A DNA stretch of 21,981 bases from a virus. Numbering within the stretch: the first letter of the stretch is position 1; every line of letters starts with the position of its first letter. Below the pieces are notes generated by a model, which worked only from the letters and a program-made list of their open reading frames with translations, did no database searches and was not told the origin of the DNA. The position numbers were made by a program, and so were the translations under genes. Where the stretch lies: positions 1 through 21,981 of IMG/VR virus record IMGVR_UViG_3300023184_000570; one strand, written 5' to 3'. Shown here in pieces: positions 6,461 through 21,981 of the stretch.

Positions 6461-7145
6461 TTTAGCCGATTACGAGCCAGTAGAGGTGAGACTTGAAAAG
6501 TTTATTAAGGACTATCCAGATTTTCGCATTAGCACTGAGTTGGAAGTGGTGGAAGCAACTCGATACATCGTTAAGGCTTATCTCTTTAAGACTAGCCAAG
6601 ATAGCATCGCATGGGCAACAGGGTACGCTGAGGAGACGGTTAGCTCTCGCGGTGTCAATCAAACTTCTGCATTGGAGAATTGCGAGACATCGGCAATTGG
6701 CAGAGCACTTGCAAATGCGGGTTATGCTCCTAAAGGAAAGCGTCCTAGCCGCGAAGAGATGAGCAAGGTTGCACCTAATCACCCAGCTCTTAAAGTAGTC
6801 AAAAATGAAGTATTACCCGCTCCACAAGATATTAAAGAAGGCGATGTTGATTACTGGACTACACCTATTGGATCATCTGTCAAGACCACTCAAGCTCCAG
6901 TTACATTAGATTCAGCAATGGCTACGGTAACTGAGATTCTAGGTACGGCAGAAGCTCTGGATGCTCCAACATGTCTGCATGGTCATATGGAATGGCGTAC
7001 TGGTCATTCTGCTAAGACTGGCAAGGACTGGGCTGGATATTTCTGTACCTCAAAAGGTCAAACTGGTGGCTTAGATAAATGTCCAACGCATTGGTATAAC
7101 TTAAGCAGTAGTGGTAAGTGGGAACCACAGAAAGCAAGGGTATAA
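6453..7145 (+). CDS. Single-stranded DNA-binding / annealing-like protein with C-terminal zinc ribbon
   Basis: A 230-residue protein. The N-terminal ~105 residues are of a type usually annotated in actinophages as ssDNA-binding or recombination protein: F-N-L-A-D-Y-E-P-V, D-F-R-I, an R-Y-I-V-K-A strand, G-Y-A-E-E, then S-A-L-E-N-C-E-T-S-A-I-G-R-A-L-A-N-A-G-Y. A linker follows, then a probable zinc ribbon (Cys174, His176/178, Cys198, Cys210, His213). I chose ATG 6453 because an alternative ATG at 6444 is too close to the AGAGG site, and in the second copy spacing favours the equivalent ATG 21828. It is the best candidate for a recombination or replication protein here. The assignment is by motif recognition. 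Confidence 0.6.
   Translation: MFNLADYEPVEVRLEKFIKDYPDFRISTELEVVEATRYIVKAYLFKTSQDSIAWATGYAEETVSSRGVNQTSALENCETSAIGRALANAGYAPKGKRPSREEMSKVAPNHPALKVVKNEVLPAPQDIKEGDVDYWTTPIGSSVKTTQAPVTLDSAMATVTEILGTAEALDAPTCLHGHMEWRTGHSAKTGKDWAGYFCTSKGQTGGLDKCPTHWYNLSSSGKWEPQKARV
6507..6606 (+). repeat. 100-bp exact direct repeat, first copy
   Basis: These 100 bases, inside the annealing-protein gene, are identical to the last 100 bases of the window (21882-21981). The base just before differs (T 6506 versus C 21881), and the 55 bases before that again match. A window ending exactly after 100 matched bases is what a circular assembly overlap looks like. The spacing gives a 15,375-bp unit. Confidence 0.95.
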
Positions 7146-7339
7146 TGGGATTCGCAGAGTTTCACACAGTCGATGGGTGGGTCAATGTTGAGGACATACC
7201 TATGATTGATACAGTTAATTGCCAACTGTGCAACGAGCCAACAGAAGCTAAGGACATTGTTGCAGACATTCACATTACCGATAACGGACTAAAAGTAGGC
7301 GCATGGCAGTGCAGAAAGTGTAAGGCCGTCAATGGATAA
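7145..7339 (+). CDS. Small zinc-ribbon protein, 64 aa
   Basis: Starts at ATG 7145, overlapping the previous stop (TAATG); a longer upstream in-frame start at 7118 would overlap the previous gene by 28 bases and is less likely. Residues run MGFAEFHTVDGWVNVEDIP, then C-Q-L-C and, about 33 residues on, C-R-K-C. This gives one four-cysteine zinc ribbon. No family recognised. Small zinc ribbons among replication genes often contact nucleic acid or a protein partner; here that is inference from context. It overlaps the start of the next small gene. Confidence 0.6.
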   Translation: MGFAEFHTVDGWVNVEDIPMIDTVNCQLCNEPTEAKDIVADIHITDNGLKVGAWQCRKCKAVNG

Positions 7340-7421
7340 AGAAGATCTAATTACATTTTTGTTATTAGTTTTATTCATTGGTGCTGTCGCTATGGGTTAT
7401 ACAATGGGGCTTAATCATTAG
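7332..7421 (+). CDS. Tiny single-pass membrane protein, 29 aa
   Basis: A short ORF starting at ATG 7332, inside the end of the preceding gene, and stopping at TAG 7419-7421. The product is MDKEDLITF followed by one hydrophobic segment (LLLVLFIGAVAMGYTMG) and a short L-N-H tail. An acidic N-terminus, one membrane pass and tight overlaps on both sides resemble the other tiny membrane proteins of this genome. It explains why the overlapping frame of the next gene has a false hydrophobic start. The function is unknown and the evidence is composition and position only. Confidence 0.5.
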   Translation: MDKEDLITFLLLVLFIGAVAMGYTMGLNH

Positions 7422-7851
7422 CCAACACAGGAAGCACAGAGGTTTCCGCACAGAGCGAGTGGTCGCACAGTACCTATCGGCTGTATGGCCGTTCGCTAGT
7501 GTGGGAAGAGGAAATGGTAAGGATATTCAATCAGTGCCTTTTGATTGTGAAGTCAAGGCAAGGGCTGGATTCCAACCTAAGGCAGTCTTGGAGCAGATTC
7601 GTAAGCGCACAGCCATTTCGGGGGAATTGGGCTTTGCAGTCTTGCGTCTTAATGGGCAGGGAGAAAATGCAGCGGAGTATGCCTGCATTATCCAGCTCCA
7701 AGACTTGCTTCCCCTTTTAGAGTTAAAGTATGGTCACATTAAAGTTGATCCAGAGGATGCAGACATTCAACGCTGTAGCTGTGGGTCATGGATGATTGGG
7801 GAATGTAAAACATGCCAGCCTACGATTACAAATGCAAAAGATGCGGATTAA
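7378..7851 (+). CDS. PD-(D/E)XK nuclease, Holliday-junction-resolvase-like
   Basis: The open frame is 157 codons. The nuclease core is K-H-R-G-F-R-T-E26-R-x-V-A, then G-R-G-N-G-K-D49-I, then D-C-E58-V-K60-A-R, an arrangement typical of archaeal-type Holliday junction resolvase-like nucleases in actinophages. A C-terminal zinc ribbon follows (Cys133, Cys135, Cys143, Cys146). The start is uncertain: before the core there is no in-frame ATG, and residues 1-15 are merely the shifted reading of the tiny membrane protein gene. TTG 7378, GTG 7381 or an unusual ATT near 7417 are the choices. It probably resolves branched DNA from recombination-dependent replication or before packaging. Its end overlaps the FmdB-like gene. 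Confidence 0.65.
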   Translation: MVLSLWVIQWGLIISQHRKHRGFRTERVVAQYLSAVWPFASVGRGNGKDIQSVPFDCEVKARAGFQPKAVLEQIRKRTAISGELGFAVLRLNGQGENAAEYACIIQLQDLLPLLELKYGHIKVDPEDADIQRCSCGSWMIGECKTCQPTITNAKDAD

Positions 7852-7982
7852 AAAATGAGCTGCATCATGGCTGGTATGACAAACCTACAGTTCTATGCAC
7901 TTATTGTAATGAACCAATGGACAAAATCATTAGCCCAATAGGGGCAATCTTCAAAGGCACGGGCTGGGGAAGTAGTAAATAG
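7812..7982 (+). CDS. FmdB-like small zinc-ribbon protein, 56 aa
   Basis: Starts at ATG 7812 inside the end of the nuclease gene and ends at TAG 7980-7982. The product begins MPAYDYKCKRCG and contains a second pair C-T-Y-C, then a C-terminal I-S-P-I-G-A-I-F-K-G-T-G-W-G-S-S-K. The M-P-x-Y-x-Y-x-C-x-x-C-G start, the paired cysteines and the F-x-G-x-G-W ending are hallmarks of the FmdB/putative regulatory zinc-ribbon family. The exact role in phages is unknown; nucleic acid or transcription contact is likely. Its stop touches the first DnaA box. Confidence 0.7.
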   Translation: MPAYDYKCKRCGLKNELHHGWYDKPTVLCTYCNEPMDKIISPIGAIFKGTGWGSSK

Positions 7983-8003
7983 TTATCCACAAAGTTATCC
8001 ACA
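7983..8003 (+). promoter_or_regulatory. Two perfect DnaA boxes
   Basis: TTATCCACA occurs at 7983-7991 and again at 7995-8003, in direct orientation 12 bp apart, in the only gap between the early genes and the lytic-protein/packaging genes. This is the exact bacterial consensus. Strong hairpins follow at 8085-8132. Together they make a candidate replication origin that recruits host DnaA, which fits a phage with no initiator or polymerase of its own. The second box ends against the AGGAGGT ribosome site (8003-8009) of the next gene, so DnaA binding could also affect that gene. Confidence 0.6.
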
Positions 8004-8013
8004 GGAGGTATCG

Positions 8014-8466
8014 ATGAAACGACACGCCGTTCTGACCAGCACTTATAGAAATCGATTTGACAGCCATGGTACGCTAACGGCGCAGAGCCTCTCAAAGGCT
8101 CACCGCAAGCCCCTCAGGGGCGTAGCTTGCGGGGTGCTAGTAGCTATTGGGATAGCTCTATGCTTCGTACCGAGTGCAGGCTCTAATAACTCCAAAGAAT
8201 ATATTGATTATAAGACTTATGCTCTCTATCTATTAGACTTTAATTATAAAGAATATCAATGCTTAGTTAAGCTTTATGGTAAAGAAAGTGCATGGAATCC
8301 ATTAGCTGTTAATGGTTCTCATTATGGAATACCACAAGGAAAGAGTGAGTGGCTTAAAGACCAGGATGGTTATACTCAAGTACAATGGGGATTAGACTAC
8401 ATAGGCCATAGATATGGTGAGCCATGTATTGCCTTAGATCATTGGAGTAAGTACGGATGGCATTAA
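8014..8466 (+). CDS. Lytic transglycosylase-like cell-wall protein with membrane anchor
   Basis: A 150-residue protein with a strong AGGAGGT site four bases before ATG 8014. Residues 1-35 are basic, 36-54 are hydrophobic (signal anchor or signal peptide), and the C-terminal ~75 residues match actinobacterial lytic transglycosylase / aggregation-promoting-factor-type domains: C-L-V-K-L-Y-G-K-E-S-A-W-N-P with a likely catalytic Glu, then Y-G-I-P-Q, Q-W-G-L-D-Y-I-x-x-R-Y-G-x-P-C and a final G-W-H. It should act on peptidoglycan outside the membrane, at release or entry. The N-terminal coding part contains several strong inverted repeats, which may mean it overlaps a DNA or RNA element. The stop overlaps the HNH start by ten bases. 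Confidence 0.7.
   Translation: MKRHAVLTSTYRNRFDSHGTLTAQSLSKAHRKPLRGVACGVLVAIGIALCFVPSAGSNNSKEYIDYKTYALYLLDFNYKEYQCLVKLYGKESAWNPLAVNGSHYGIPQGKSEWLKDQDGYTQVQWGLDYIGHRYGEPCIALDHWSKYGWH
8085..8132. other. Cluster of inverted repeats near DnaA boxes
   Basis: Three stems are packed into about 50 bases: GAGCCT/AGGCTC (8085-8090, 8096-8101), CCCC/GGGG (8110-8113, 8117-8120), and an outer CCGCAAG/CTTGCGG (8103-8109, 8126-8132) enclosing the second. They lie in the first part of the lytic transglycosylase-like gene, 80-130 bases after the DnaA boxes, in a locally GC-rich patch. A role as part of an origin, a packaging site or an mRNA structure is possible; none is shown. Confidence 0.5.
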
Positions 8467-8795
8467 GAGATAGAAGCCATAGAGAGCTAGGGCTACAGAA
8501 GTGGAAAGACCAGCGCTTAAGAGTATTAAAGCGTGATGGTTACATCTGTGCTTATTGTGGACAAGAAGCTAATCAAGTAGATCATGTCATCAGTCGCAAA
8601 GATGGTGGCAGTCATGACCTAGATAACTTGGTTGCTTGTTGTGCTACTTGCAATAGCAAGAAGGGTGCGCTCAATGAGGGCGTTTTTTTAGGTAAGAGCT
8701 CTACCCCCCCTGTCTTTTCAGGGCATATCTACCCGATGCAGTCCGAGCCAATGCCAGACAGTCCTTTTAAGACCCGACCTAATCCGAGTCAATGA
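8457..8795 (+). CDS. HNH endonuclease
   Basis: A 112-residue HNH nuclease with the full zinc-binding fold: C31-A-Y-C34, the catalytic V-D42-H43-V, D-N57, and C62-A-T-C65-N. Such proteins lie beside terminase in HK97-like phages and help the terminase cut at cos ends. The C-terminal ~35 residues are Pro/Ser-rich and probably unstructured. It overlaps both neighbours; the terminase ATG overlaps its TGA. A run of seven T at 8683-8689 follows a 5-bp stem and spells a U-UUU-UUA slippery heptamer in the reading frame. A -1 slip would stop one codon later, leaving the HNH core intact. Confidence 0.9.
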   Translation: MALRDRSHRELGLQKWKDQRLRVLKRDGYICAYCGQEANQVDHVISRKDGGSHDLDNLVACCATCNSKKGALNEGVFLGKSSTPPVFSGHIYPMQSEPMPDSPFKTRPNPSQ

Positions 8796-10237
8796 CGACT
8801 AAACCCAAAGCTAAACAGCCGCTCCGAGGGGCAACGCTACCGAGGGTTCACAGTCCACTACTCAAGGGCAAAAGTAGGGCTGGTGAAGTTTTTGAAATGG
8901 TTGAGCGTCTGAAAATGGATAAGCTTATGCCATATCAAGAACATGTCCTTAAACAGATGATGATGGTCGATAAAAAGAACCAGTATCGCGTTAAGACTGC
9001 CTTGTTACTCATATCTCGCCAAAATGGTAAATCTCACTTAGGCAGAGTGCGTGTTATTTGGGGCATGTTTTACGGTGGCGAGAAGAAGCACATCATCATG
9101 AGCTCTAATAGAGCAACTGCTTTGATGACCTTTCGAGAAATCGCTTGGATCATCGAATCAACCCCAGAGTTAAAGGCGATGACTAAAGCAGTGCGTTATG
9201 CCAACGGTGGCGAGCGAATAGAGCTACTCAATGGCGCAACCCTTGACTTGGTATCAGATACCAGAGATTCAGCTCGTGGTCGTACTGCCGATTTCTTATG
9301 GATTGATGAAGTGCGAGAAATATCTGAGGATGGCTATAAAGCTGCAATACCTACCACAAGGGCTAGAGCCAATGCTCAGACCTTTTTAACATCTAATGCT
9401 GGTGATGCTTTCAGTACTGTCTTAAACGGCCTTGTGGAGCGAGCAAAAGATTATCCGCCAGAGACTTTTGGCTACTATGAGTATTCAGCGCCTCAATATT
9501 GCAAAATAGATATTTCGAGTGAATCTTTTTGGCGAGATGCAGTAGCACCTAGTAATCCTGCTCTGGGTTACACAGTGACCAGAGAATCCATCGAAGAGGC
9601 GATAGCAACTGCTCCGATTGAAACGACTCGCACGGAAGTACTGTGCTCGTGGATTGATTCTTTGCAATCACCGTGGCCTCATGGAGTTTTGGAAGAAACT
9701 AGCGATAGCGCTTTAGAGCTATCTGTTGGCGCTTATACAGTCTTTGCTTTCGATGTTAGCCCTTCACGGCGCAACTGTTCACTTGTGGCAGGCCAAATAC
9801 TGCCAGATGGTCGAATCGGCATTGGAATCATGGAAACTTGGAGTTCTCAGGTCGCAGTCGATGATCTAAAGATTGCAGCAGCAATTAAGGGCTGGTGCGA
9901 CCTTTACAGACCGCGTTTAGTGTGCTACGACAAATATGCAACCCAATCAATAGCTGACAGATTGAAGCAATCGGGCGTAGTTACTGAGGATGTCTCAGGC
10001 CAAGCCTTTTATCAAGCCTGTGGAGACTTATTGACAGGATTGGTGACTCATAAGGTCGTTCATAATGGTCAGGCAGAGCTAATCCAGCAGATGAATAATT
10101 GCGCGGCTAAGGTCAACGATTCGGCTTGGAGAATCATCAAAAGAAAGAGCGCAGGCGATATATCGGCTCCGATTGGCCTAGCGATGGTAGTAAGCAAGTT
10201 AATGCTCCCAGCCCCTAAACCTCAGATTATCACTTAG
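8792..10237 (+). CDS. terL: Terminase large subunit
   Basis: A 481-residue packaging motor. Near the N-terminus is the ATPase: a Walker A variant S75-R-Q-N-G-K80-S81 and Walker B L-W-I-D172-E173. The RNase H-like nuclease follows, with F-A-F-D321, C-Y-D380 and a late Asp near 456. The length is normal for a complete large subunit of phages with HNH partners. There is no recognisable small terminase upstream; the HNH gene occupies that place. The start overlaps the HNH stop (ATGA). An inverted repeat covers the stop codon region, and a promoter-like sequence lies before the portal gene. Confidence 0.95.
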   Translation: MTTKPKAKQPLRGATLPRVHSPLLKGKSRAGEVFEMVERLKMDKLMPYQEHVLKQMMMVDKKNQYRVKTALLLISRQNGKSHLGRVRVIWGMFYGGEKKHIIMSSNRATALMTFREIAWIIESTPELKAMTKAVRYANGGERIELLNGATLDLVSDTRDSARGRTADFLWIDEVREISEDGYKAAIPTTRARANAQTFLTSNAGDAFSTVLNGLVERAKDYPPETFGYYEYSAPQYCKIDISSESFWRDAVAPSNPALGYTVTRESIEEAIATAPIETTRTEVLCSWIDSLQSPWPHGVLEETSDSALELSVGAYTVFAFDVSPSRRNCSLVAGQILPDGRIGIGIMETWSSQVAVDDLKIAAAIKGWCDLYRPRLVCYDKYATQSIADRLKQSGVVTEDVSGQAFYQACGDLLTGLVTHKVVHNGQAELIQQMNNCAAKVNDSAWRIIKRKSAGDISAPIGLAMVVSKLMLPAPKPQIIT

Positions 10238-10261
10238 ACACCTGCGTGGCGTGTTGTCTAA
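10234..10261. other. Inverted repeat across the terminase stop codon
   Basis: TTAGACA (10234-10240) and TGTCTAA (10255-10261) form a 7-bp stem around a GC-rich 14-base loop. The loop could pair inside itself (ACAC with GTGT). There is no T-run after it, so a simple intrinsic terminator is unlikely; an operator or mRNA-processing stem is possible. The site precedes the portal and head genes. Confidence 0.4.
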
Positions 10262-10282
10262 TTACTTGACAAATGCTACACT
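10254..10282 (+). promoter_or_regulatory. Possible promoter for head genes
   Basis: TTGTCT (10254-10259) and TACACT (10277-10282) are 17 bases apart and fit a weak -35/-10 pair with a TANNNT-type -10. A transcript would begin about 10289-10291, close to the preferred portal ATG, so it might be leaderless as is common in Actinobacteria. A better -35 (TTGACA, 10266-10271) is too close to this -10. The motif TGCTACACT resembles TGCAACACT in both conserved leaders. Confidence 0.3.
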
Positions 10283-10290
10283 TTATGACT

Positions 10291-11394
10291 ATGGGTCTAT
10301 TTACGCGTAAAGAATCAAACACCAAAAATAGTGATCTATTGGCGCAATATGCCCCTCAAGTTTTAAGCAATAATTATTATTATGCTGTTGCTCCAGTAAT
10401 AGACCGAGCAACAGCTTTGGAAGTGCCTTCAGTCGTTCGCGCAAGAAATCTAATATGTGGCACTATTGCATCAATGCCTTTAGAGCTTTACAGAAAATCA
10501 ACTGGAGAAGAATTAGGCAAGCCAGTTTGGATGGATCAACCTTCTCCTAACCAACCTAGAGCAATTACAATTTCTTACACGGTTGACTCGTTAATCTTTC
10601 ATGGTTGGTCACTTTGGAAAATAACAAGTCGCTATTCTGAAGATGGACGACCTGCATCTTTTGAGTGGGTTCCCAATTCTCGCATTACTCCACAATATGA
10701 AGGCTATAACAATTATTACATTTCAGGTTATGAAATTGATGGAGTAATTTATTCTAATGATGATGTCGTAACATTTCAATCCCTCAATGATGGCATTTTA
10801 ACTACTGGAGCCAGAGTATTACGCGGTGCAGTCGATTTAGAAATTGCATCTACTTTGGCTGCCGCCACACCGCAACCCGCTGGGATATTGAAGAACACAG
10901 GAGCTGACCTTGATCCAAAAGAAGTTCAAGGATTGTTAGCATCTTGGCGCCAAGCGAGAAGTCAGAGGACAACTGCCTATCTCACTTCCACTTTGGAGTA
11001 CCAGGCCAATTCATTCTCACCTAAAGACATGATGTATAATGAAGCTAAGCAAGATTATGCGACTCAAATAGCTCGCTTAATGAATCTCGATGCTTTTTAT
11101 CTTAGCGCAGATGCCAATAACTCAATGACTTACAGTAACCTGCTAGATTCTCGCAAGCAGTTTGTTTCTCTTACATTGCAGCCTTTTATTACTGCAATCG
11201 AAGATAGACTTTCTATGAATGATGTGACTGCCAATGGCAATGAAGTGCGTTTTGATTTAGATAAGTCATTCTTGCGAGCCAACCCAATGGATGATTTATT
11301 GGTAATTGAAAAGATGCTAACTTTGGGCTTAATTACAGTTGAACAAGCAATGGCAATGACAGATGTAACACCTAACGGAAGCAATGGTATGTAA
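10291..11394 (+). CDS. Portal protein
   Basis: A 367-residue portal, the dodecameric ring at the capsid vertex through which DNA passes. HK97-type portal features appear in order: an N-terminal V-V-R-A-R-N-L-I-C-G-T-I-A-S-M-P-L-E-L-Y segment, P-S-P-N-Q-P-R, then W-V-P-N-S-R-I, a P-A-G-I-L-K-N-T-G stretch, N-E-A-K-Q-D-Y-A-T-Q-I-A-R-L-M-N at the crown side and a C-terminal L-G-L-I-T-V-E-Q-A. I prefer ATG 10291 (MGLFTRK) over the in-frame ATGs 10273 and 10285, since MGLF is a typical portal start. It is compact compared with most portals. Its stop overlaps the next ATG. Confidence 0.9.
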   Translation: MGLFTRKESNTKNSDLLAQYAPQVLSNNYYYAVAPVIDRATALEVPSVVRARNLICGTIASMPLELYRKSTGEELGKPVWMDQPSPNQPRAITISYTVDSLIFHGWSLWKITSRYSEDGRPASFEWVPNSRITPQYEGYNNYYISGYEIDGVIYSNDDVVTFQSLNDGILTTGARVLRGAVDLEIASTLAAATPQPAGILKNTGADLDPKEVQGLLASWRQARSQRTTAYLTSTLEYQANSFSPKDMMYNEAKQDYATQIARLMNLDAFYLSADANNSMTYSNLLDSRKQFVSLTLQPFITAIEDRLSMNDVTANGNEVRFDLDKSFLRANPMDDLLVIEKMLTLGLITVEQAMAMTDVTPNGSNGM

Positions 11395-12938
11395 TGGAAA
11401 ATATACTTACATTTTCAGCAGATTTAACTGCCGATACAGCTAAGAGAGTTATCTCAGGCAAGATTGTGCCTATGGGTACAGGCGAAGTAGGAGCGACTTC
11501 AGCAGGCGCGGTAGTCTTTGAAAAGGGAAGTATTCAACTTCCAGAAGATCCAAAAAGTATTAAACTACTTAATCAGCACAATACAAAAGAGCCTTTAGGC
11601 AAAGCGCAATTTTTTAACGAAGTTGATGGCGAAGGCATTTATGCCAGTTTCAAGATTTCTAATTCCAGTCGCGGTACAGATGCTCTTATTACAGCATCCG
11701 AAGGCTTGACATCTGGCCTTTCAGTCGGTGTAGAAGTTTTGAAGTCAAGTCGTAAAAGTGGGGTCATGCATGTAACTGCTGCCCGACTATTTGAAGTTTC
11801 ATTAGTAACAGAGCCAGCCTTTAAATCTGCTCAGGTTATTGATGTTGCTGCTGAGGAAACACCCGAAGCAGTAGAAGAAGAAATCAAACCAACAGAAAGC
11901 GAGCCAGTCGTGGAATCAACTCCAGACATCGTAGCAGCTCCAGAAGTTGAGGCATCGGCTGTAGAAGCTGCTCGCCCAACTGTTGCTGTTACAAATATCC
12001 GTCCTCGCCTAAAGCCACTCACATCAGGTGAGTATCTAGAGGCAAACATCAAGGCAGCAATGGGAGATGACGCAGCTCGTCAGCTCGTTCTTGCTACAGA
12101 TGACACAACAACAAACACAGGTCTTACACTTGCACCACACCTAAATGAGTTTGTTACAACTTCAATCGATGGCCGTCCAGCCGTTGATGCAATTTCAAAG
12201 GGTGTTTTGCCAGCTTCAGGAATGTCATTTACAATTCCTAAACTCACAACAGCTCCAACTATCGATTCTGACTCAACAGAAGGCGAAGCACTTGGCGGTA
12301 CAGGTATGGCTTCAAGCTATATCACTGCAACTGTTAAAAAGGCAGCAGGACTTCAAACAATTTCATGGGAGTTACTAGATCGCAGCCAACCATCATTCTA
12401 TGATGAACTCATCAAGGAATTGACTTATGCTTATGCTAAGGCAACAGATCAAGCTGTTACAGCAGAATTGACTGCATCTGGAACACTTGCATCAACACAA
12501 GCTGCAACAATTGCAGGACTAAAGGCTTACATTGCAAAGGAAGTACCAGCAGCTTATGCAGCAGCAGGTAAGTTTGCTCGTAACCTTATCGTCAATACTT
12601 CATGGTGGGAAACAATCATGTCATCTGAGGACACAACAAATCGTCCTCTATTTATGGCTTCAAACCCACAAAACAATCCAGGAAACATCTCTGGTCAATC
12701 AATCGTAGGCGATGTCATGGGTCTTAACACATTTGTTGATCCACACATGACAGTTACAACAAAGATTGACGATTCTGCATACATCGTAGTACCAGAATCA
12801 TTTACATTCTACGAAGCACCAAAGACAACAGTAAATGTGCAAGCACTTGCTAATGGTCAATTACAGGTCGCTGTTTATGGCTACTATGCAATCGCTGCAA
12901 AGGTCGGCGCAGGATGCCGCCGTTTCAACCTAACCTAA
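11394..12938 (+). CDS. Prohead protease - major capsid protein fusion
   Basis: A 514-residue protein with two parts. Residues 1-150 are an HK97-type (S78) prohead protease: I-S-G-K-I-V-P, L-L-N-Q-H62-N as the likely catalytic His, G-L-S110-V-G-V as the likely Ser, and F-E-V-S-L-V-T-E-P-A. Residues 150-200 are an acidic Glu/Pro/Ala linker like a scaffold (delta) domain. Residues ~205-514 are an HK97-fold capsid protein (T-L-A-P-H-L, then S-W-E-L-L-D-R-S, and a C-terminal Y-G-Y-Y-A-I-A-A-K). The protease should cut itself off during maturation. The capsid half is rich in ACA and GCA codons, as for a highly expressed gene. A strong hairpin follows. Confidence 0.9.
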   Translation: MENILTFSADLTADTAKRVISGKIVPMGTGEVGATSAGAVVFEKGSIQLPEDPKSIKLLNQHNTKEPLGKAQFFNEVDGEGIYASFKISNSSRGTDALITASEGLTSGLSVGVEVLKSSRKSGVMHVTAARLFEVSLVTEPAFKSAQVIDVAAEETPEAVEEEIKPTESEPVVESTPDIVAAPEVEASAVEAARPTVAVTNIRPRLKPLTSGEYLEANIKAAMGDDAARQLVLATDDTTTNTGLTLAPHLNEFVTTSIDGRPAVDAISKGVLPASGMSFTIPKLTTAPTIDSDSTEGEALGGTGMASSYITATVKKAAGLQTISWELLDRSQPSFYDELIKELTYAYAKATDQAVTAELTASGTLASTQAATIAGLKAYIAKEVPAAYAAAGKFARNLIVNTSWWETIMSSEDTTNRPLFMASNPQNNPGNISGQSIVGDVMGLNTFVDPHMTVTTKIDDSAYIVVPESFTFYEAPKTTVNVQALANGQLQVAVYGYYAIAAKVGAGCRRFNLT

Positions 12939-12957
12939 TAAGTTAGAAACTAAGTCG

Positions 12958-12995
12958 CTCTGGGGGTCAGTAGCCCTCTGACCCCCAGAGTCTTT
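12958..12995 (+). terminator. Strong hairpin after the capsid gene
   Basis: CTCTGGGGGTCAG (12958-12970) pairs perfectly with CTGACCCCCAGAG (12978-12990) around a 7-base loop, followed by TCTTT. The 13-bp GC-rich stem lies 19 bases after the capsid stop and before the connector gene. The U tract is poor, so it may end only part of transcription, or protect the 3' end of capsid mRNA, giving more capsid than connector transcripts. This is the clearest terminator-like structure in the window. Confidence 0.75.
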
Positions 12996-13009
12996 AGAAA
13001 GGAATCGTT

Positions 13010-14079: not shown

Positions 14080-14499
14080 ATGGCAGTATTTCTAAACAAT
14101 AAGGTCGGTATTAAGGTTAATTCTGTTGACCTTTCTGACCACGTCACAGCAGTAACGCTCAATCGCACATTTGATGAGCTAGAAGTTACAGCGATGGGTG
14201 ACACAGCACACAAGTTCGTTAAAGGCTTGGAAGCAGCATCAGTCACAATTGATTTTTTAAACGACACAGCAGCAGCAAATGTATTGGCAACACTACAAGC
14301 AGCTTATGGCACAACAGTAACAGTAAAGCTTATCCAGGAAAAGGGAACAGCAGTTTCTGCTACCAACCCTGTTTATTCTTTCTCTGTTTTAGTCAACAAC
14401 CTAACAGATGTTAACGGATCAGTTGGCGATATTGGTACTCAATCAGTAACATGGACATGTAACTCAGTCGTTACAGTCGATACAACTGGGCCATTCTAA
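14080..14499 (+). CDS. Major tail (tube) protein
   Basis: A 139-residue protein, beta-rich, in the expected place just before the tail assembly chaperones. It opens MAVFLNNKVGIKVNSVDLSD, continues with V-T-L-N-R-T-F-D-E-L-E-V-T-A-M-G-D-T-A-H, and has the late strand Q-S-V-T-W-T-C-N. Similar layouts are seen in small actinophage tail tube proteins. Hexamers of it stack to form the tail lumen wall around the tape measure. It lacks the additional Ig-like domain of larger tail proteins. The role is set by position and length more than by a recognised signature. Confidence 0.7.
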   Translation: MAVFLNNKVGIKVNSVDLSDHVTAVTLNRTFDELEVTAMGDTAHKFVKGLEAASVTIDFLNDTAAANVLATLQAAYGTTVTVKLIQEKGTAVSATNPVYSFSVLVNNLTDVNGSVGDIGTQSVTWTCNSVVTVDTTGPF

Positions 14500-14522
14500 A
14501 CAATTAAATTAAGGGGCTAAAC

Positions 14523-14959: not shown

Positions 14960-15578
14960 AGCTCTTAGAAACTTTACTCCAAACCTTGCTAAAGAAACTC
15001 AAAAAGAATTAGCTTCTTTGCTTAAGCCTGTTACAAATAAAGCAAGAGGATTCATACCTTCGCAAGCCCCTCTTAGTGGATGGGCTAAAGCAAGTGGCAA
15101 CGGTGGGTTCCCTTTGTGGAGTACATCGGCTGCCAAACGGGGCATTGGATATAAAACAACACCATCTAAACCTAATCGTCAGGGATTTAGAGCGTTAGCT
15201 CGTATTGTTAATGCTTCCGCTGCTGGTGCAATTTATGAAACTGCTGGCCGTAAAAATTCTAATGGTCGCGAGCAAGCCCCTATGGCTAATGTATATGCTA
15301 ACGGCAAAGCAACAGGAAGAACAAAGAGATCAGGTTCTAAAAACCAGTCAATGAGCAATAATCCACAAGCAGGCTCGCTCTTCATTCAATCCATGAATCA
15401 ATACAGTCAAATTGTTGATGCTAATAATCAGACTGGAGCAGGTCGTAGAAGTGGCAAAATGAAAGGCCGTGCAATTTTCAGAGCTTGGAAAGAAGATGGC
15501 GGTAAAACAAACGCAGCCGTGATTAAGGCTATTGAAAAGGCTAGAGATAAGTTTTATGCAGCAACAGGAGCTAAATAA
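14922..15578 (+). CDS. HK97 gp10-like tail-completion/joining protein
   Basis: A 218-residue basic protein (many Lys, Arg, Gly and Asn). Its N-terminus (G-A-I-A-L-R-K-A-L-R-N-F) and middle (G-F-P-L-W-S-T-S-A-A-K-R-G-I-G-Y, then Q-G-F-R-A-L-A-R-I-V-N-A-S-A-A-G-A-I-Y-E-T-A-G) match the pattern of gp10-like proteins, which close or join head and tail. It sits between the chaperone pair and the tape measure, a less usual place, since it normally precedes the tail tube. The end of the same gene from the related strain opens this window. Start ATG 14922 has a good AAGGAG site; the stop overlaps the tape measure ATG. Confidence 0.55.
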   Translation: MPVEVKGAIALRKALRNFTPNLAKETQKELASLLKPVTNKARGFIPSQAPLSGWAKASGNGGFPLWSTSAAKRGIGYKTTPSKPNRQGFRALARIVNASAAGAIYETAGRKNSNGREQAPMANVYANGKATGRTKRSGSKNQSMSNNPQAGSLFIQSMNQYSQIVDANNQTGAGRRSGKMKGRAIFRAWKEDGGKTNAAVIKAIEKARDKFYAATGAK

Positions 15579-17197
15579 TGGCCGTTGATCCATCAGTAGT
15601 TATTAACTTAGCAGCCGAGTTCACAGGCAAAAAAGCCTTCAAGCAAGCGGAAACCGCAACAGATAGACTTAATAAAAATGTAACTAATCTTGCTAAAGGT
15701 ATTATTGGTGCATTTAGCGTAGGCAAAATACTTGCGTTTTCAAAAGCATCAATTCGCGCAGCCGCTCAAGACCAAAAGGCTCAACAGCAATTAGCTCTAG
15801 CTCTTAAGAATGTTGGCTTAGGCCGAGATGCGGCTACTGCTGAAGGATACATCCAACGCCTTCAAAGCGAGTTCGGAATAGTCGATGACAAGTTAAGACC
15901 AGCCTATCAAACCTTAGCAATCGCAACCCGTGACACTGCTGAAGCCCAAAGACTTATGGGTATTGCGATGGATGTCAGCGCGGCTAATGGCCTTGATTTA
16001 AGCACTGTCTCTAAAGCCTTAAGCAAAGCATATCTAGGCAATAACACTGCTTTGTCTAAATTAGGTGTTGGCATATCTAAGGCAGACCTTAAGACTAAAT
16101 CATTTAAGGAAATCACAGACCAATTGGCTTTAACCTTTGCTGGCTCAGCAACTACTGCAGCAAGTGGTTACCAGGGTGCTTTAGATAAACTTGCAGTAGC
16201 CTCAAACAATTTCAAAGAATCAATTGGCACAGGCTTAATTGAAGCCTTGCAGATTCTTTCAGGCGACCAGGGTCTTGGCGGTGCTACATCAGCACTTGAA
16301 AATTACGGCAAAAAGATTTCAGACGCTACAATCGGTACAGCCTATTTATTAGATGAATTAAAGAAGATTCCAGGCGCATCTTTTGCGCTATCTTTGCTCA
16401 GTGATCCATTAGGCATTAACACATTATTAGATGCCGCTCAAAAGTTTAAGCAACAGCCACGACCTTTCAAAACTCCTATGACCATTTCTGGTCAAGTGAC
16501 AAAGCAAACATCTGCCGTTACTCAAAATAAGGTAGCCAAAGAAACCCTTAAAGTTAACAAAGACAGCCTCAAACTGGCCAAAGCTAAAGCCATTTTTGAC
16601 TTACAGAAGATTCAAATTGAAGCAGCTCTTAAGGGTAAGATTTCAGAAGAAGACCGTATCCGTCTTAAGCTCATGCAGGCTATTGAAGATGAGAACATTA
16701 CTCAGATTGAAAAGTACACTAAGCAACTAGACGAGGCTCAAAAAAATACTGAAAAGTTGGTAGCCACGCTTCAAAGCATTAAGCCTTTGGATGATGTGTT
16801 TAAAAACTGGAACTTTATGACAGTTAAAGAGCAGTTAGCCAACCTTGAGACTTATTTCAAGAACTTTGCTGGTTCTGCTGCATCTGCTTTTAATTCCCTA
16901 GCTGCATCACAAAAGGCTGCTCTTGGCGGTTATGTGCCATTCGTGGGAGCCACTAACGCATCCCTTGGCATTACCTCAACAGGTGGCAACACAACATCTA
17001 TGCCATCTACCGTAGGTTTAGGAACATCTGGTACAGGCAATCAACTACCAGTAGGGGTTACTATTAACACAACTGTACAAGGTTCAGTTATTGCTGAAAA
17101 TGATTTAACTCAAGCCATCAACGATGCTTTAGCTGCATCTGGTTGGGCTGGCTCAGCCATAGGATATAGCCGACAAGCAGTAATTACGGCAGTCTAA
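15578..17197 (+). CDS. Tail tape measure protein (arm B)
   Basis: A 539-residue homologue of the protein at 75-1691. Conserved blocks are the N-terminal ~205 residues, a block starting V-A-K-E-T-L-K-V, the helical I-F-D-L-Q-K-I-Q-I-E-A-A-L-K-G-K-I-S-E-E-D-R segment, and an almost unchanged Gly/Thr/Ser-rich C-terminus. Between about 225 and 315 the two proteins barely align, yet total length differs by one residue, so tail length should be the same in both phages. It is preceded by the full gp10-like gene (TAATG overlap). Confidence 0.85.
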   Translation: MAVDPSVVINLAAEFTGKKAFKQAETATDRLNKNVTNLAKGIIGAFSVGKILAFSKASIRAAAQDQKAQQQLALALKNVGLGRDAATAEGYIQRLQSEFGIVDDKLRPAYQTLAIATRDTAEAQRLMGIAMDVSAANGLDLSTVSKALSKAYLGNNTALSKLGVGISKADLKTKSFKEITDQLALTFAGSATTAASGYQGALDKLAVASNNFKESIGTGLIEALQILSGDQGLGGATSALENYGKKISDATIGTAYLLDELKKIPGASFALSLLSDPLGINTLLDAAQKFKQQPRPFKTPMTISGQVTKQTSAVTQNKVAKETLKVNKDSLKLAKAKAIFDLQKIQIEAALKGKISEEDRIRLKLMQAIEDENITQIEKYTKQLDEAQKNTEKLVATLQSIKPLDDVFKNWNFMTVKEQLANLETYFKNFAGSAASAFNSLAASQKAALGGYVPFVGATNASLGITSTGGNTTSMPSTVGLGTSGTGNQLPVGVTINTTVQGSVIAENDLTQAINDALAASGWAGSAIGYSRQAVITAV

Positions 17198-18444
17198 TGG
17201 CACTACCAGCAACCCTTACGGTTCAAATTAACTTTTCTAATGGCCCAGCCTACGGCATCCCATTAACTTTAGATGATCCAGTTAAAGGTATTCTTGGCAC
17301 AAATGTTTTAGGTGATAGCTCATCTTTGGTAATCGACTACTCAACATCTACTACCAATATCGCTATTCGTAGAGGTCGCAACCTTCTTCAAGATACTTAC
17401 GATGCAGGGCAGGCAACTGTTAGGATTTTAGACCCTAACGGTGACTTCAATCCTCAAAATACGCTATCTCCCATTTATGGTTATTTACAGCCTGCTAGAA
17501 AGCTTCGCATTTCTGCTAACTATGGTGGGGTTGAGTATTATTTATTCTCAGGCTACACAGCCGAGTATCGCTATACCTATCCACAAGGCCAAGAAACAGG
17601 TTATGTGACTGTTACCGCCTTTGATGCTTTCAAAATATTCAACACCTCAGCCGTGACTACCGTAACTGGTCAAGCAGCGGGTCAGACTACAGGCACCCGT
17701 ATCGGCAAGATTTTGGACACAATTAACTGGCCATTGGGTATGCGCGACATAGACACAGGCCAGACTACTTGCCAAGCCGACCCAGGTAGCTCTCGTTCGG
17801 CTTTAACAGCCCTTAAGACGGTCGAACTTACCGAGTATGGTGCTTTCTATATCGACCCTACTGGCAACGCTGTATTCCAGGACAGAGCCTTTACAACGGC
17901 ATCTATTGGGGGCACTCCAACAGTCTTTAACCAGACTGGCACAGGCATCCCATACGCCAATGTCAAGTTTGCCTTTGATGACAAGCTGGTCTATAACCAA
18001 GCCAACATCCAGCGCACAGGCGGAACTACTCAGACTGCCAGCGATGCGACTTCTATCGACACTTACTTCTTGCACTCTTACACTCAGCAAAACTTGCTTA
18101 TGGAAACAGACACAGAAGCTCTTAATTTTGCTAAGGCTTATGTGGCATCTCGCAAGGATACTTCTATCCGCATTGATGCCTTAACCCTTGACCTTATGAC
18201 TCCAAGCTATACCGCTGGAGTTACCGCAGCCCTTAACCTGGATTACTTTGACCCTGTAACTATCACAAACACCACAGATAGCGGATCAACAATAACTAAA
18301 ACCCTACAGGTTCAAGGAGTAAGCCATGACATTACCCCTAATTCATGGTTAACAACTTTCACCACGATGGAGCCAATAATCGATGGCTTCATCCTAGATT
18401 CGGCATTATACGGTATCCTTGGGGTATCGTCTTTCAGCTACTAA
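17197..18444 (+). CDS. Minor tail protein, distal-tail/baseplate type (arm B)
   Basis: 415 residues, the same length as the arm A copy, with roughly 27 scattered, mostly conservative changes (for example K to R at 76 and E to D at 83). The longest unchanged run covers about residues 205-300. Nucleotide differences are much more frequent and mostly silent. This protein contacts the conserved fibre N-terminus and tape measure C-terminus, which may explain why all three interfaces stay constant while tips change. TAATG overlap with the tape measure. Confidence 0.75.
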   Translation: MALPATLTVQINFSNGPAYGIPLTLDDPVKGILGTNVLGDSSSLVIDYSTSTTNIAIRRGRNLLQDTYDAGQATVRILDPNGDFNPQNTLSPIYGYLQPARKLRISANYGGVEYYLFSGYTAEYRYTYPQGQETGYVTVTAFDAFKIFNTSAVTTVTGQAAGQTTGTRIGKILDTINWPLGMRDIDTGQTTCQADPGSSRSALTALKTVELTEYGAFYIDPTGNAVFQDRAFTTASIGGTPTVFNQTGTGIPYANVKFAFDDKLVYNQANIQRTGGTTQTASDATSIDTYFLHSYTQQNLLMETDTEALNFAKAYVASRKDTSIRIDALTLDLMTPSYTAGVTAALNLDYFDPVTITNTTDSGSTITKTLQVQGVSHDITPNSWLTTFTTMEPIIDGFILDSALYGILGVSSFSY

Positions 18445-18453
18445 GGAGCAATA

Positions 18454-19311
18454 ATGGCAGGAGCAGGTTACAAGCTGTTTAGCACAGGAGATGTGCTATC
18501 GGCTAGCGATGTAAATACTTATTTACAGCAACAGACAGTTATGGTATTTGCAAGTGCAGCAGCGCGTACTACTGCTCTTTCAAGTGTGCTTGCAGAAGGC
18601 ATGGTTTCATACCTTAAAGACACCGATGTTGTAGAAATTTACACAGGTGCAGCTTGGGTTTCTCTTGATGATCCAAACGCTATCCAGAACTCAATCGTGG
18701 ATGCTAAGGGTGACATCATTACGGCAACTGCCGATAACACACCAGCCCGCCTAGCAATTGGCGCAAATGCCACAGTCTTGACAGCTGATTCAACCACAGC
18801 AACAGGCTTGAAATGGGCTGCACCAGCGGGCGGTGGTGGTATGACTTTAATCGCGACGACAACTTTGTCCGGATCTTCGATCAGTTGGACTTCGATTGCA
18901 AGCACTTATAAAAATTTGGTCGTTGTTGTTCAAAACTACAAGCCAGCAACTAACGGCGAATATTTAATTGGTCAATTTAATACGGATACAGGAACTAATT
19001 ATCGAGACGTTGCAGCATCAGCAGATGCGGTTGGTGCTGCCGATCGTGCTAATTTGACAGTATCGTTTGAAGCAAGCAATTCAGTAAGTAATTCTATTCA
19101 ATATTGGACTATTTACGATTATGCTAATTCTACAACTTACAAACAAGCGGAAACTATTTCTTGGAATACTAACAAAACAACAACTACAAATATGAACTTT
19201 ATTCGTAGAAATCATTTGTGGTATAGCGCAGCAGCCATTACATCAGTTCAGTTAAAACCATCAGCAGGAAACTTTACATCAGGAACTGCCCTATTATACG
19301 GAGTCTCATAA
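18454..19311 (+). CDS. Tail fibre / receptor-binding protein, different tip (arm B)
   Basis: 285 residues. Residues 1 to about 123 match the arm A fibre; then a Gly-rich hinge (A-G-G-G-G-M) leads into a ~155-residue beta domain unrelated to the arm A tip. Its features (L-S-G-S-S-I-S-W-T-S-I-A-S-T-Y-K-N-L-V-V-V-V, G-T-N-Y-R-D, L-W-Y-S-A-A-A-I-T-S-V and a final S-A-G-N-F-T-S-G-T-A-L-L-Y-G) are those of a beta-sandwich module found at the end of many phage fibres. The shared ribosome site TAAGGAG is identical in both arms. The domain is assigned by recognition only. Confidence 0.75.
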   Translation: MAGAGYKLFSTGDVLSASDVNTYLQQQTVMVFASAAARTTALSSVLAEGMVSYLKDTDVVEIYTGAAWVSLDDPNAIQNSIVDAKGDIITATADNTPARLAIGANATVLTADSTTATGLKWAAPAGGGGMTLIATTTLSGSSISWTSIASTYKNLVVVVQNYKPATNGEYLIGQFNTDTGTNYRDVAASADAVGAADRANLTVSFEASNSVSNSIQYWTIYDYANSTTYKQAETISWNTNKTTTTNMNFIRRNHLWYSAAAITSVQLKPSAGNFTSGTALLYGVS

Positions 19312-19529
19312 TGACAAAGCCAATGATTAGAATCCACGACACAGAAACAGGTCAAATTATCGATCGTGAAATGACCGATGATGAATTTAAAATTTATGAA
19401 ATGGAACAAAAAATTGAAGCAGATCGTAAAGCTGCAAAATTAAAAGCCGAAAATGATAAATTAGTTGCACAAAGCAAATTGGAGGCTTTGGGTTTAACAA
19501 TAGATGAATTGAAGGCGCTTGGCTTGTAG
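19311..19529 (+). CDS. Small fibre companion protein, coiled-coil type (arm B)
   Basis: 72 residues: MTKPMIRIHDTETGQIIDRE, then M-T-D-D-E-F, followed by a Lys/Glu/Ala-rich helix likely to form a coiled coil (about residues 28-60) and ending L-G-L-T-I-D-E-L-K-A-L-G-L. Such short H-D-x-x-T-G-x-x-x-x-R-E-M proteins often follow phage fibres, so assembly help is plausible. It replaces the unrelated 58-residue protein of arm A and overlaps the fibre stop (TAATG) and the endolysin start. Confidence 0.65.
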   Translation: MTKPMIRIHDTETGQIIDREMTDDEFKIYEMEQKIEADRKAAKLKAENDKLVAQSKLEALGLTIDELKALGL

Positions 19530-19957
19530 TGAAACCTAAACTATCCAAATCGGCCATCCAACTTCGTGAGCAGATAGATGATTGCTTCCCAGAGCGTGAT
19601 CGTGCGAGTGATGGCTGGGTCGCGGATGTCAGGCACATGCGTGAAGGCAAGTCTGATCATATACCAGATGCTGATGGATGGGTTCGTGCTATCGACATTG
19701 ACCGTGATTTATCGGGAAAAGCCAAGCCAGACATCATGCCCGATTTTGCAGATGCGCTTCGAATCTATGCAAAGCGTAATGGAAAGAGAATTGCCTATAT
19801 CATCTTTGACGGCAGGATTGCGTCTCCCATCCTTGGCTGGAAGTGGCGCACATACAAAGGGGCGAACAAACATAATCACCACATGCATGTTAGCTTTAAA
19901 AAAGAAGCTGACCTTAATGGTGACTTTTATCAAATACCTATGATAGGCGGAAAATAA
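19529..19957 (+). CDS. M15-family peptidase, endolysin (arm B)
   Basis: 142 residues starting at GTG 19529, which overlaps the companion TAG. The zinc motifs are kept: S-D-H-x5-G-W-V-R-A-I-D-I-D and H-H-M-H-V-S-F. It differs from arm A mainly in the region before the first His (R-H-M-R-E-G-K versus R-H-A-A-R-K) and around the Asp (D-R-D-L-S-G-K-A-K versus D-A-D-L-F-G-A-G-V-K). The start is fixed by the match with M-K-P-x-L-S-K in arm A. The role is as for the arm A copy. Confidence 0.85.
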   Translation: MKPKLSKSAIQLREQIDDCFPERDRASDGWVADVRHMREGKSDHIPDADGWVRAIDIDRDLSGKAKPDIMPDFADALRIYAKRNGKRIAYIIFDGRIASPILGWKWRTYKGANKHNHHMHVSFKKEADLNGDFYQIPMIGGK

Positions 19958-20101
19958 ATGAATATGAAGAACCCTTATGTCCTTACCGCTGGAGCATTTC
20001 TCTCAGCTTGGGCTGCATCAAACTTTGCAGCTGACTACCGCTCAGTCCTTTGGGCTATTCTCGCAGGCGTCTTTGGTTATGCCACACCCAGAAAAAAATG
20101 A
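19958..20101 (+). CDS. Small holin-like membrane protein (arm B)
   Basis: 47 residues with four changes and one extra residue relative to arm A (Y-V-L for Y-I-L, R-S for R-A, W-A-I for W-A-V, and P-R-K-K at the end). Substitutions inside the membrane segments are conservative. The start ATG follows the endolysin stop directly. Its stop overlaps the start of the next membrane protein (ATGA). Confidence 0.6.
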   Translation: MNMKNPYVLTAGAFLSAWAASNFAADYRSVLWAILAGVFGYATPRKK

Positions 20102-20289
20102 GTGCGCAGGACATAGCGGCTCTTGCTGTTGCTGTTACGACCGTTATTGGTTCATTTATTGGCTTAGTGCGATGGTTAGTAAAGCACTACCTAGCAGAGC
20201 TAAAGCCCAACGGTGGAAGCTCGATGAATGATAGAATTACTCGCCTTGAAGCGCGTGTCGAAACGATTATTTCACTTCTAGAGAGGTAA
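20098..20289 (+). CDS. Second small membrane protein of lysis cassette (arm B)
   Basis: 63 residues from ATG 20098 (MSAQDIAAL). One hydrophobic segment (about residues 6-28) is followed by a basic stretch R-W-L-V-K-H-Y and a helical, charged C-terminus (N-D-R-I-T-R-L-E-A-R-V-E-T-I-I-S-L-L-E-R). An in-frame start at 20050 exists but would add 16 residues inside the holin gene, so it is rejected. It shares plan and position, but little sequence, with the 49-residue arm A protein. Roles considered are second holin, antiholin or envelope partner. Confidence 0.55.
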   Translation: MSAQDIAALAVAVTTVIGSFIGLVRWLVKHYLAELKPNGGSSMNDRITRLEARVETIISLLER

Positions 20290-20299
20290 CAATTATCTC

Positions 20300-20527
20300 A
20301 TGGCAAAAAAAGCAACTAAGGCATTAGAGGAACAAGGTTACTCAAAGTTAGATGCTTACTGCATTGGCCTTTATGAGTATTTTTGCAGTCTTAAGCGAGC
20401 AGGCTTCAAAGAAGATGTAGCCATGTTTATGATTACTGAGCCTCAATCTTACCCTGCTTGGATATTGCCAGACCCAGTCGATCCAGAGAGGTTCGGCGAT
20501 TACGAAGATGAGGACGATGACGACTAA
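20300..20527 (+). CDS. Conserved 75-aa protein of unknown function (arm B)
   Basis: Almost the same as the arm A protein: R3 to K, K64 to R, N67 to D and one extra Asp at the acidic end. The central block from residue 4 to 63 is unchanged although many codons differ silently, which shows strong selection on the protein. It overlaps the phosphoesterase start. No family was recognised. Confidence 0.7.
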   Translation: MAKKATKALEEQGYSKLDAYCIGLYEYFCSLKRAGFKEDVAMFMITEPQSYPAWILPDPVDPERFGDYEDEDDDD

Positions 20528-21260
20528 AAAGCGTTACCTGGTTATCTCGGATTTACAAATCCCATTTCACCATGAAGCAGCAGTCAAGAATCTAATCAAG
20601 TTAGTTAAGAAAGAAAAGTTTGACCTCATCCTTAATACGGGTGACGAGTTGGACATGCAGAGCCAGAGCAAGTGGGCGAAGGGAACTCCACTAGAATGGG
20701 ATGGAACTCTCGATGCTGACAGAAGCCTTGCACAGGATATTCTCTATGAACTTGGCACAACAGATGTCACTAGAAGTAATCACACAGACAGGCTCTACCA
20801 CACTCTATTACGAGCACCTAGCCTCATTGGATTGCCAGAGCTTGAGTACTCCAAGTTTATGGACTTTGCAGGACTCGGAATCCGCTTCCACAAGCGACCA
20901 TTCGAGTTTCATAAGGGATGGGTCTTGGTACACGGTGACGAAGGATCGATGAACTCTAATGCTGGACTTACAGCTCTTGGGCTGGCTAAAAAGTTTGGCA
21001 AGTCTGTAGTCTGTGGACACACACATAGGGCAGGCATTAGTGCCTTCACAGAGGGCATAGGAGCCTCATACAGGACACTTTGGGGCTTAGAGGCAGGAAA
21101 TGTCATGGACAAGAAAAAAGCCTCTTATTTGAAGGCTGGAGCCGCTAATTGGCAGATGAGCGTGGCAGTCATTGAGACTCATGGCGACCATGTTTCGCCT
21201 ATGCTAGTGCCAATCAATAAGGATGGGTCATTTACCCTTTATGGACGACTTTACGCTTGA
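20517..21260 (+). CDS. Calcineurin-like metallophosphoesterase (arm B)
   Basis: 247 residues from ATG 20517 (MTTKKRYLVISDLQIP); ATG 20508 is the longer alternative. All metal motifs are kept, including the D-x-Q variant. Changes cluster near residue 50 (S-K-W-A-K-G-T-P versus S-R-F-A-Q-G-T-K), close to the G-D-E-L-D motif, while the C-terminal half is nearly identical. It ends at TGA 21258-21260, just before the second conserved leader. Confidence 0.85.
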   Translation: MTTKKRYLVISDLQIPFHHEAAVKNLIKLVKKEKFDLILNTGDELDMQSQSKWAKGTPLEWDGTLDADRSLAQDILYELGTTDVTRSNHTDRLYHTLLRAPSLIGLPELEYSKFMDFAGLGIRFHKRPFEFHKGWVLVHGDEGSMNSNAGLTALGLAKKFGKSVVCGHTHRAGISAFTEGIGASYRTLWGLEAGNVMDKKKASYLKAGAANWQMSVAVIETHGDHVSPMLVPINKDGSFTLYGRLYA

Positions 21261-21333
21261 TGTCACACGCACAATAGACGATATGCTAGACGATGTAGAA
21301 TCGTTACCATTTCGTTATCAAAATGTCCGCTAA
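21241..21333 (+). CDS. Possible 30-aa acidic ORF (arm B only)
   Basis: ATG 21241 lies inside the end of the phosphoesterase and the frame is open to TAA 21331-21333. It would encode MDDFTLDVTRTIDDMLDDVE and ten further residues (SLPFRYQNVR). The composition looks protein-like, but there is no equivalent in arm A and no clear ribosome site, so this may be chance. It would cover the CGTTA repeats of the leader. Confidence 0.2.
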   Translation: MDDFTLDVTRTIDDMLDDVESLPFRYQNVR

Positions 21334-21398
21334 TTCGTCTGGACTGTGTGCAACACTAATCCTGTAGCCAATCGAGGGCATTGGCACAAGGGGGACAA
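21261..21398 (+). promoter_or_regulatory. Conserved leader with hairpin (arm B)
   Basis: This non-coding gap matches 5656-5757. It keeps the TCGTTA…TTTCGTTATC direct repeats (about 21301-21319), GTCTGGACT, TGCAACACTAATCCTG and the hairpin TGT(A)GCCAAT/ATTGGCACA at 21363-21388 with one loop base changed (A to G). Preservation of both stem arms in a non-coding region between diverged arms supports a working DNA or RNA element. The following gene differs from arm A, so the element is not tied to one coding sequence. Confidence 0.5.
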
Positions 21399-21554
21399 AT
21401 GGACGGAACAGACATACTTGCCATAGCGACAGCTGTGGTATTAATTCTTGGTTTTATATTTGCCGAGGTTTCCAGAAAAAGCTATGAACGCGGATTGCGC
21501 GAAGGTTGGCATCGTGGTCGTGGCGTTAATCGTCAGGAGTTTTGGGAAGAATGA
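21399..21554 (+). CDS. Tiny single-pass membrane protein with R-G-x3-G-W-H motif (arm B)
   Basis: 51 residues, ATG 21399 to TGA 21552-21554: MDGTDI, a hydrophobic segment (LAIATAVVLILGFIFA), then S-Y-E-R-G-L-R-E-G-W-H-R-G-R-G-V-N-R-Q-E-F-W-E-E. The hydrophobic part has no resemblance to arm A, but the last ~22 residues follow the same motif. It directly follows the conserved hairpin with a GGGGGA site and overlaps the next start (ATGA). Confidence 0.65.
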   Translation: MDGTDILAIATAVVLILGFIFAEVSRKSYERGLREGWHRGRGVNRQEFWEE

Positions 21555-21835
21555 AATACGCAGAGATTCTTCAAAGTGCTACTGACATCATTCAAGATCG
21601 TGGTCTCAACGACTACGGTCACCCAGCAGATAACATGCAACACGCAGCTATGCTCATCTCAGCATACCTACAGTATCCGATTGAGGACTATCAAGTGTGT
21701 GGGATTCTTGCCCTTATCAAAATGGCCAGAGCAACCTCAGGAACAATTGATAAGCCAGACAATTACATCGATGGAGCCGCTTACTTCGCACTCATGGGCG
21801 AATTAGCCACAGAGGAGAATGAATTATATGTTTAA
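21551..21835 (+). CDS. DUF6378-like protein (arm B)
   Basis: 94 residues from ATG 21551 (MKYAEILQSATD); the in-frame start at 21542 is rejected because arm A starts at the equivalent of 21551 in an ATGA overlap. It keeps D-R-G-L-x-x-Y-G-H-P-A-D-N-M, I-S-A-Y-L, E-D-Y-Q-V, I-L-A-L-I-K-M-A-R, Y-I-D-G-A-A-Y and T-E-E-N-E-L-Y-V. About 58% identical to arm A by eye. The abrupt rise to near identity begins at its very end. Confidence 0.65.
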   Translation: MKYAEILQSATDIIQDRGLNDYGHPADNMQHAAMLISAYLQYPIEDYQVCGILALIKMARATSGTIDKPDNYIDGAAYFALMGELATEENELYV

Positions 21836-21981
21836 TTTAGCCGATTACGAGCCAGTAGAGGTGAGACTTGAAAAGTTTATCAAGGACTATCCAGATTTTC
21901 GCATTAGCACTGAGTTGGAAGTGGTGGAAGCAACTCGATACATCGTTAAGGCTTATCTCTTTAAGACTAGCCAAGATAGCA
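21828..21981 (+). CDS. Annealing-like protein, 5' part (cut by window end)
   Basis: Opens M-F-N-L-A-D-Y-E-P-V exactly as at 6453 and runs off the end after 51 codons. Over 154 bases there is one silent difference from 6453-6606. If the molecule is circular, this is the same gene as 6453-7145, and the true genome continues at 6607. Confidence 0.75.
   Translation, partial: MFNLADYEPVEVRLEKFIKDYPDFRISTELEVVEATRYIVKAYLFKTSQDS
21882..21981 (+). repeat. 100-bp exact direct repeat, second copy (window end)
   Basis: Identical base for base to 6507-6606; the match stops only because the sequence stops. See the first copy for the interpretation as a circular overlap. Confidence 0.95.

Follow-up and report, generated by a model that had tools for sequence, protein, structure and literature searches.

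The stretch examined here, the window, is the whole of IMG/VR virus record IMGVR_UViG_3300023184_000570 (21,981 nucleotides). It carries the genes of a small siphovirus, and the features at issue are an exact repeat reaching the window end, two versions of a tail, lysis and early gene arm, and a cohesive-end (cos) site lying inside the gene for an HNH endonuclease. The layout of the record, labelled according to the reading argued below, is as follows; the names tape-measure protein (TMP), lysin and holin reflect position and size only.

1..6506, + strand: foreign arm (tail, lysis, early genes) of a second strain, here strain A; a diverged copy with the gene order of relatives
Foreign-arm genes, + strand: TMP-like 75-1691; tail 1691-2938; fibre 2948-3766; lysin-like 3965-4402
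Further foreign-arm genes, + strand: gene 4698-4922; metallophosphoesterase 4906-5655; small genes 5758-6185; DUF6378-like 6182-6460
6507..6606, + strand: exact repeat copy 1, merge point of the strain arms, within open reading frame (ORF) 6444-7145
6507..21881, + strand: one genome equivalent, 15,375 bp, in an arbitrary circular permutation
15578..21835, + strand: the unit's own tail, lysis and early arm, here strain B
Own-arm genes, + strand: TMP-like 15578-17197; tail 17197-18444; fibre 18454-19311; lysin-like 19529-19957
Further own-arm genes, + strand: holin-like 20050-20289; metallophosphoesterase 20508-21260; DUF6378 21542-21835
21882..21981, + strand: exact repeat copy 2, at the extreme window end, where the graph walk closes on itself

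The two copies of the repeat are identical at 100 of 100 bases, the bases preceding them differ (T at 6506, C at 21881), and the match is stopped solely by the end of the window. Beyond the T/C mismatch a further 56 bases upstream match exactly, and 6392-6606 and 21767-21981 are ~91% identical. Alignment of the arms (1-6506 with 15578-21881) gave 72.7-91.7% nucleotide identity per block, with offsets that shift between 15,375 and 15,645 through small insertions and deletions. Elsewhere the arms have no identical run beyond 43 bases in length, and the 100-base run far exceeds the local arm-versus-arm background. The arms also differ in content, an 88-aa gene (5758-6024) being found in arm A with none in arm B, and a 72-aa gene (19311-19529) in arm B with none in arm A. 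Duplication in the window is confined to the arm from TMP to DUF6378. All remaining genes are single-copy, and the stretch 6507-21881 encodes one TerL, a portal, a protease-capsid fusion, connectors, one major tail protein, a TMP-sized gene, tail and fibre genes, lysin- and holin-like genes, a metallophosphoesterase, a DUF6378 protein and the HNH endonuclease. The first-pass annotation had described this arrangement from the letters of the record (an exact terminal match preceded by a differing base, a single small-siphovirus gene set in 6507-21881, and a related strain's second tail, lysis and early arm in 1-6506), and each of these points was borne out.

Queries with TerL and with the metallophosphoesterase each match hundreds of IMG/VR stretches, and relatives with long enough contigs have the window's gene order. 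Three types of record place the unit genome of these relatives at 15.3-16.9 kb. Perfect circles measure 15,368 (G038), 15,473 (L080), 15,620 (L175), 15,701 (L120), 15,780 (G047), 15,939 (L157), 15,966 (G045), 16,016 (G048), 16,109 (G044), 16,663 (G035) and 16,890 bp (G034). Intervals from cos to cos in longer contigs span 15,314 (L171), 15,772 (L170), 16,028 (G042), 16,034 (G031) and 16,594 bp (G032). Linear contigs that begin and finish at one shared cos are 15,292 (L164), 15,475 (L165), 15,585 (L163), 15,799 (L174), 16,089 (L167) and 16,198 bases long (L176). The repeat offset of 15,375 bp fits this range. Thus the length of the complete 15,375-bp genome proposed in the first-pass annotation stands, whereas its boundary at 6507 is arbitrary and it may combine more than one haplotype; the warning that the record is not a 22-kb genome is supported by the units of closed and cos-bounded relatives. 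In L090 (5553-7295) and L130 (5770-7548), ~1.2-1.3 kb are added between the lysin-like and holin-like genes.

Overlaps of this kind recur in the group. G032 (21,644 bp) and G033 (17,741 bp) break off after exactly 127 bases of an internal exact repeat, within aligned blocks that are only ~91-92% identical overall, and we read both as having the same rho shape as the window, with k = 127. Mirror forms carry the overlap at the contig start (127 bases in L170, 126 in L131 and G037, 122 in L178). Together with the closures of G032 and G033 they support the rho-shaped graph path that had been suggested for the window. Perfect circles overlap by exactly 127 bases in L120, L175, G044, G045 and G047; in all, an overlap of exactly 127 is seen in eight contigs of this phage group, and we take the recurrent length to be an assembler k-mer signature. 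Other circles overlap by 72 (G038), 98 (G048), 116 (L157), 123 (L080 and G035) and 125 bases (G034). As the closing overlaps of the circles run from 72 to 127 bases, a 100-base closure is within range. Circular de Bruijn contigs likewise bear a fixed-length exact overlap at their ends; the window differs from them in that its overlap hits an internal position, owing to the attached second-strain arm. In four records the length exceeds a single unit and another, diverged strain is present (G018, 29,664 bp; G031, 24,775; G032; L171, 18,412); these lengths are unfit as genome sizes.

The following features surround the physical ends of the genome.

8457..8795, + strand: HNH endonuclease ORF, 112 aa (Pfam HNH, 3.8e-13)
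8683..8691, + strand: TTTTTTTAG element, 13 nt upstream of cos, with almost no nucleotide variation
8705..8717, + strand: cos site with 13-nt overhang CCCCCCTGTCTTT, probably 3'; left ends at 8718, right ends at 8704, adapter after the right end
8741..8764, + strand: GTCC copies at +24 and +44 of the left end, within the HNH tail codons; candidate terminase or HNH binding repeats

Among 80 contigs from the TerL search, 26 start at one base, equivalent to window position 8718 and 74 nt upstream of the TerL start codon, and at least 18 distinct contigs terminate at the equivalent of 8704. In L166 and L169 the right end runs directly into AGATCGGAAGAGC, an Illumina adapter (16884-16898 on the TerL-forward strand and 15997-16009, respectively), so the sequenced molecules ended there. 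Graph break points were considered as the origin of the TerL-proximal starts and rejected, since the start base is constant in diverse strains and the opposite ends stop at a fixed base 13 nt away, followed by adapter. Ends that are unique, constant in position and separated by a short gap are as expected of cos-type packaging. The gap sequence CCCCCCTGTCTTT is identical in 35 of the 38 distinct cos-crossing sequences (L120 and L157 have variants; the third exception, L080, is one base out of register), and an exact 18-base version of the cos sequence occurs in at least 120 IMG/VR stretches. Because the fixed ends flank a 13-base gap absent from both end types, the virion genome is linear. End repair in library preparation removes 3' overhangs, giving loss from both ends; the loss of 13 nt at both ends in sequencing libraries points to a 3' polarity of the overhang. 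The length is familiar, many Arthrobacter phages having 3' extensions of 9-13 bases (PMC5513430).

Taken together, we consider it very likely (probability about 0.93) that the window records a rho-shaped walk through the graph of a metagenome assembly, and that the real virus has a linear genome of ~15.4 kb with 13-nt 3' cohesive ends. The graph would hold at least two strains of a single abundant small siphovirus. The walk would enter through the tail, lysis and early arm of strain A (1-6506), merge at the first shared k-mer (6507-6606), complete one lap of the ~15.4-kb genome, return via the strain B arm and halt at an already used k-mer (21882-21981). The cut at 6507 is a mere permutation, because the packaged DNA is a linear molecule bounded by 8704 and 8718. 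Some points weigh against this account. The overlap is 100 bases, whereas 127 is most frequent in relatives; exact runs of at least 100 bases are shared with strains from elsewhere, mostly in early genes, and the unit sequence may be a strain composite, for example switched in the conserved early genes; and the case is built from assembled contigs. A strain switch elsewhere in the walk is possible because identical runs of at least 100 bases are frequent between strains of the group.

Two other structures were weighed. The contig is continuous throughout, as it would be if the genome really were 22 kb, a tandem or partial duplication whose two arms have diverged. However, the arms differ by 8-27% with insertions and deletions, and none of the closed or cos-bounded units of relatives contains two arms, such units being 15.3-16.9 kb; tandem duplication was rejected on these grounds. 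A cos in mid-genome would, moreover, be cleaved at packaging, and we regard a 22-kb genome as extremely improbable. A join at cos, made by cohesive-end ligation or by the assembler, could instead have linked two genomes, strain A supplying the right end (1-8704) and strain B the left end (8705-21981), in which case the 100-base overlap would mark the strain B path merging with strain A and 6507-21881 would be a two-genome hybrid. Contigs including L171 and G018 do bear different strains on either side of a cos, and an overhang common to nearly all strains means that ends of different molecules could anneal. Such a join is nevertheless unnecessary, as strain switching in the arms accounts for identical data, and the perfect circles show that cos is crossed within single genomes too; we consider it conceivable but doubtful. 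On the rho-path reading the record is not countable as a 22-kb genome, and gene counts, a completeness estimate or a 'duplicated tail module' taken from it would be false. The same artefact is present in other IMG/VR records of this phage group.

As cos lies within the HNH ORF, each virion end carries one part of the HNH gene, and a complete copy exists only where the DNA is circular or concatemeric. The site corresponds to HNH codons 83-87, leaving the catalytic part on the virion right end and the last 25 codons on the left end, and the gene adjoins the terminase, its stop overlapping the TerL start codon. The right-ended contigs listed all stop at the identical HNH codon position, and distinct crossing contigs carry HNH through cos as one uninterrupted frame (L080, with a one-base shift in the script, was judged by eye). 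In 68 unique left ends, counted without the outliers L039 and L080, the HNH frame stays free of stops through the 72 bases after cos; its pN/pS is 0.42, compared with 1.23 and 1.00 in the other frames and 0.62-1.47 in 60 column shuffles. By this measure the post-cos HNH codons are under purifying selection. The tail has an invariant M-x-D-S-P-F motif, and the residues encoded by the overhang, TPPVF, are nearly invariant. In the AlphaFold prediction the core is moderate and the tail, at pLDDT 41-56, disordered, and a search with the tail peptide in phage records returned nothing meaningful. DNA-level signals overlap the HNH tail region, namely the GTCC copies at +24/+44 and the TTTTTTAG element before cos.

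The codons after cos might alternatively not belong to HNH, with the frame open by chance or encoding a short leader peptide before TerL. This would suit the in-frame ATG codons that follow cos (MQSEPM...), the predicted disorder of the tail and the nucleotide-level motifs that constrain the stretch too. We think it unlikely, because the frame is joined to HNH without a stop in distinct crossing contigs and has none in the 68 left ends, its pN/pS lies below that of both other frames and of the shuffles, and TPPVF is nearly invariant as well.

The structural and packaging genes occur once in the window.

8792..10237, + strand: TerL (PHROG 9, 2.3e-57); 91-96% aa identity in many relatives
10273..11394, + strand: portal protein (Pfam PF04860, 3e-35)
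11394..12938, + strand: prohead protease-major capsid fusion, PF04586 and PF05065 in a single ORF (PHROG 2263); relative of Decurro gp7
14080..14499, + strand: major tail protein (PHROG 4574, 1.5e-22)

Among the genes scanned there was no match to a TerS family, only one of the HNH domain to PHROG 4581. Across relatives (L010-L014 and others) the portal adjacent to the highly conserved TerL is often just 50-57% identical (8792-11394), and the cos-TerL block seems to have been exchanged between otherwise differing genomes. The 97-aa DUF6378 protein (21542-21835) matches PHROGs 474 and 1167, labelled phosphofructokinase, which looks like a carried-over misannotation.

The nearest described phages share an architecture with the window phage. 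Decurrovirus (Arthrobacter cluster AN: Decurro, Toulouse and Maggie, 15.3-15.5 kb; PMC5513430) has the same size class and the same order of terminase, portal, protease-capsid fusion, tail, lysis and early genes with HNH last; the HNH gene is beside the right end, and a similar T tract precedes the Decurro right end. In contrast to the window phage, Decurro has three small genes between its left end and TerL, and its HNH gene stops 27 nt before the right end without crossing cos. The capsid ORFs are 41% identical over 140 aa (the protease part), and the best phage matches of TerL are at 28%, all below 60%. On these comparisons the window phage does not count as a close relative of cluster AN, and we do not file it as a member of Decurrovirus. 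The Actinobacteria phage Penoan of Curtobacterium (15.3 kb) matches the capsid gene over the protease part (42.5% over 147 aa), and Rhodococcus phage RRH1 (14.3 kb) is likewise a small Actinobacteria phage with a fused protease-capsid gene (PMC5513430). An isolate closer than Decurrovirus, Penoan and RRH1 was not found. The TerL and capsid relatives in Actinobacteria phages suggest an actinobacterial host. No TerL relative, host or prophage, was present in GTDB genome contigs, and a host lead from the metallophosphoesterase, a mere 39-residue match in an archaeal metagenome-assembled genome, was not used.

In HK97 the HNH protein gp74 promotes cos cleavage (PMC9410871). The window phage resembles HK97 in having the HNH gene beside the terminase, and differs in that this gene contains cos and no small terminase was recognised. 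Wraparound genes are known, for example in mycobacteriophage Cane17 (PMC6256495), and this generic case was the only gene crossing cos that we found in the open-licence literature, where absence is weak evidence. The gene described here differs in that it encodes a packaging-type enzyme, is conserved across a diverse group and holds cos in its codons. By general cos biology, the cohesive ends would anneal after injection, circularising the genome and rejoining HNH. Late in infection HNH, probably with TerL, would cleave cos in concatemers, by analogy with HK97, and unit genomes would be packaged. Packaging would sever the HNH gene on every packaged genome, making HNH synthesis dependent on uncut DNA.

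Looking forward, the contig ends of this group yield an exact packaging site culture-free, and they identify a gene for a packaging-type nuclease, cut in two by its own packaging site. We tentatively suggest that a very common group of uncultured ~15-kb siphoviruses may have cos built into the coding sequence of an HNH enzyme that helps to cut cos, which would tie the supply of the enzyme to its uncut substrate.

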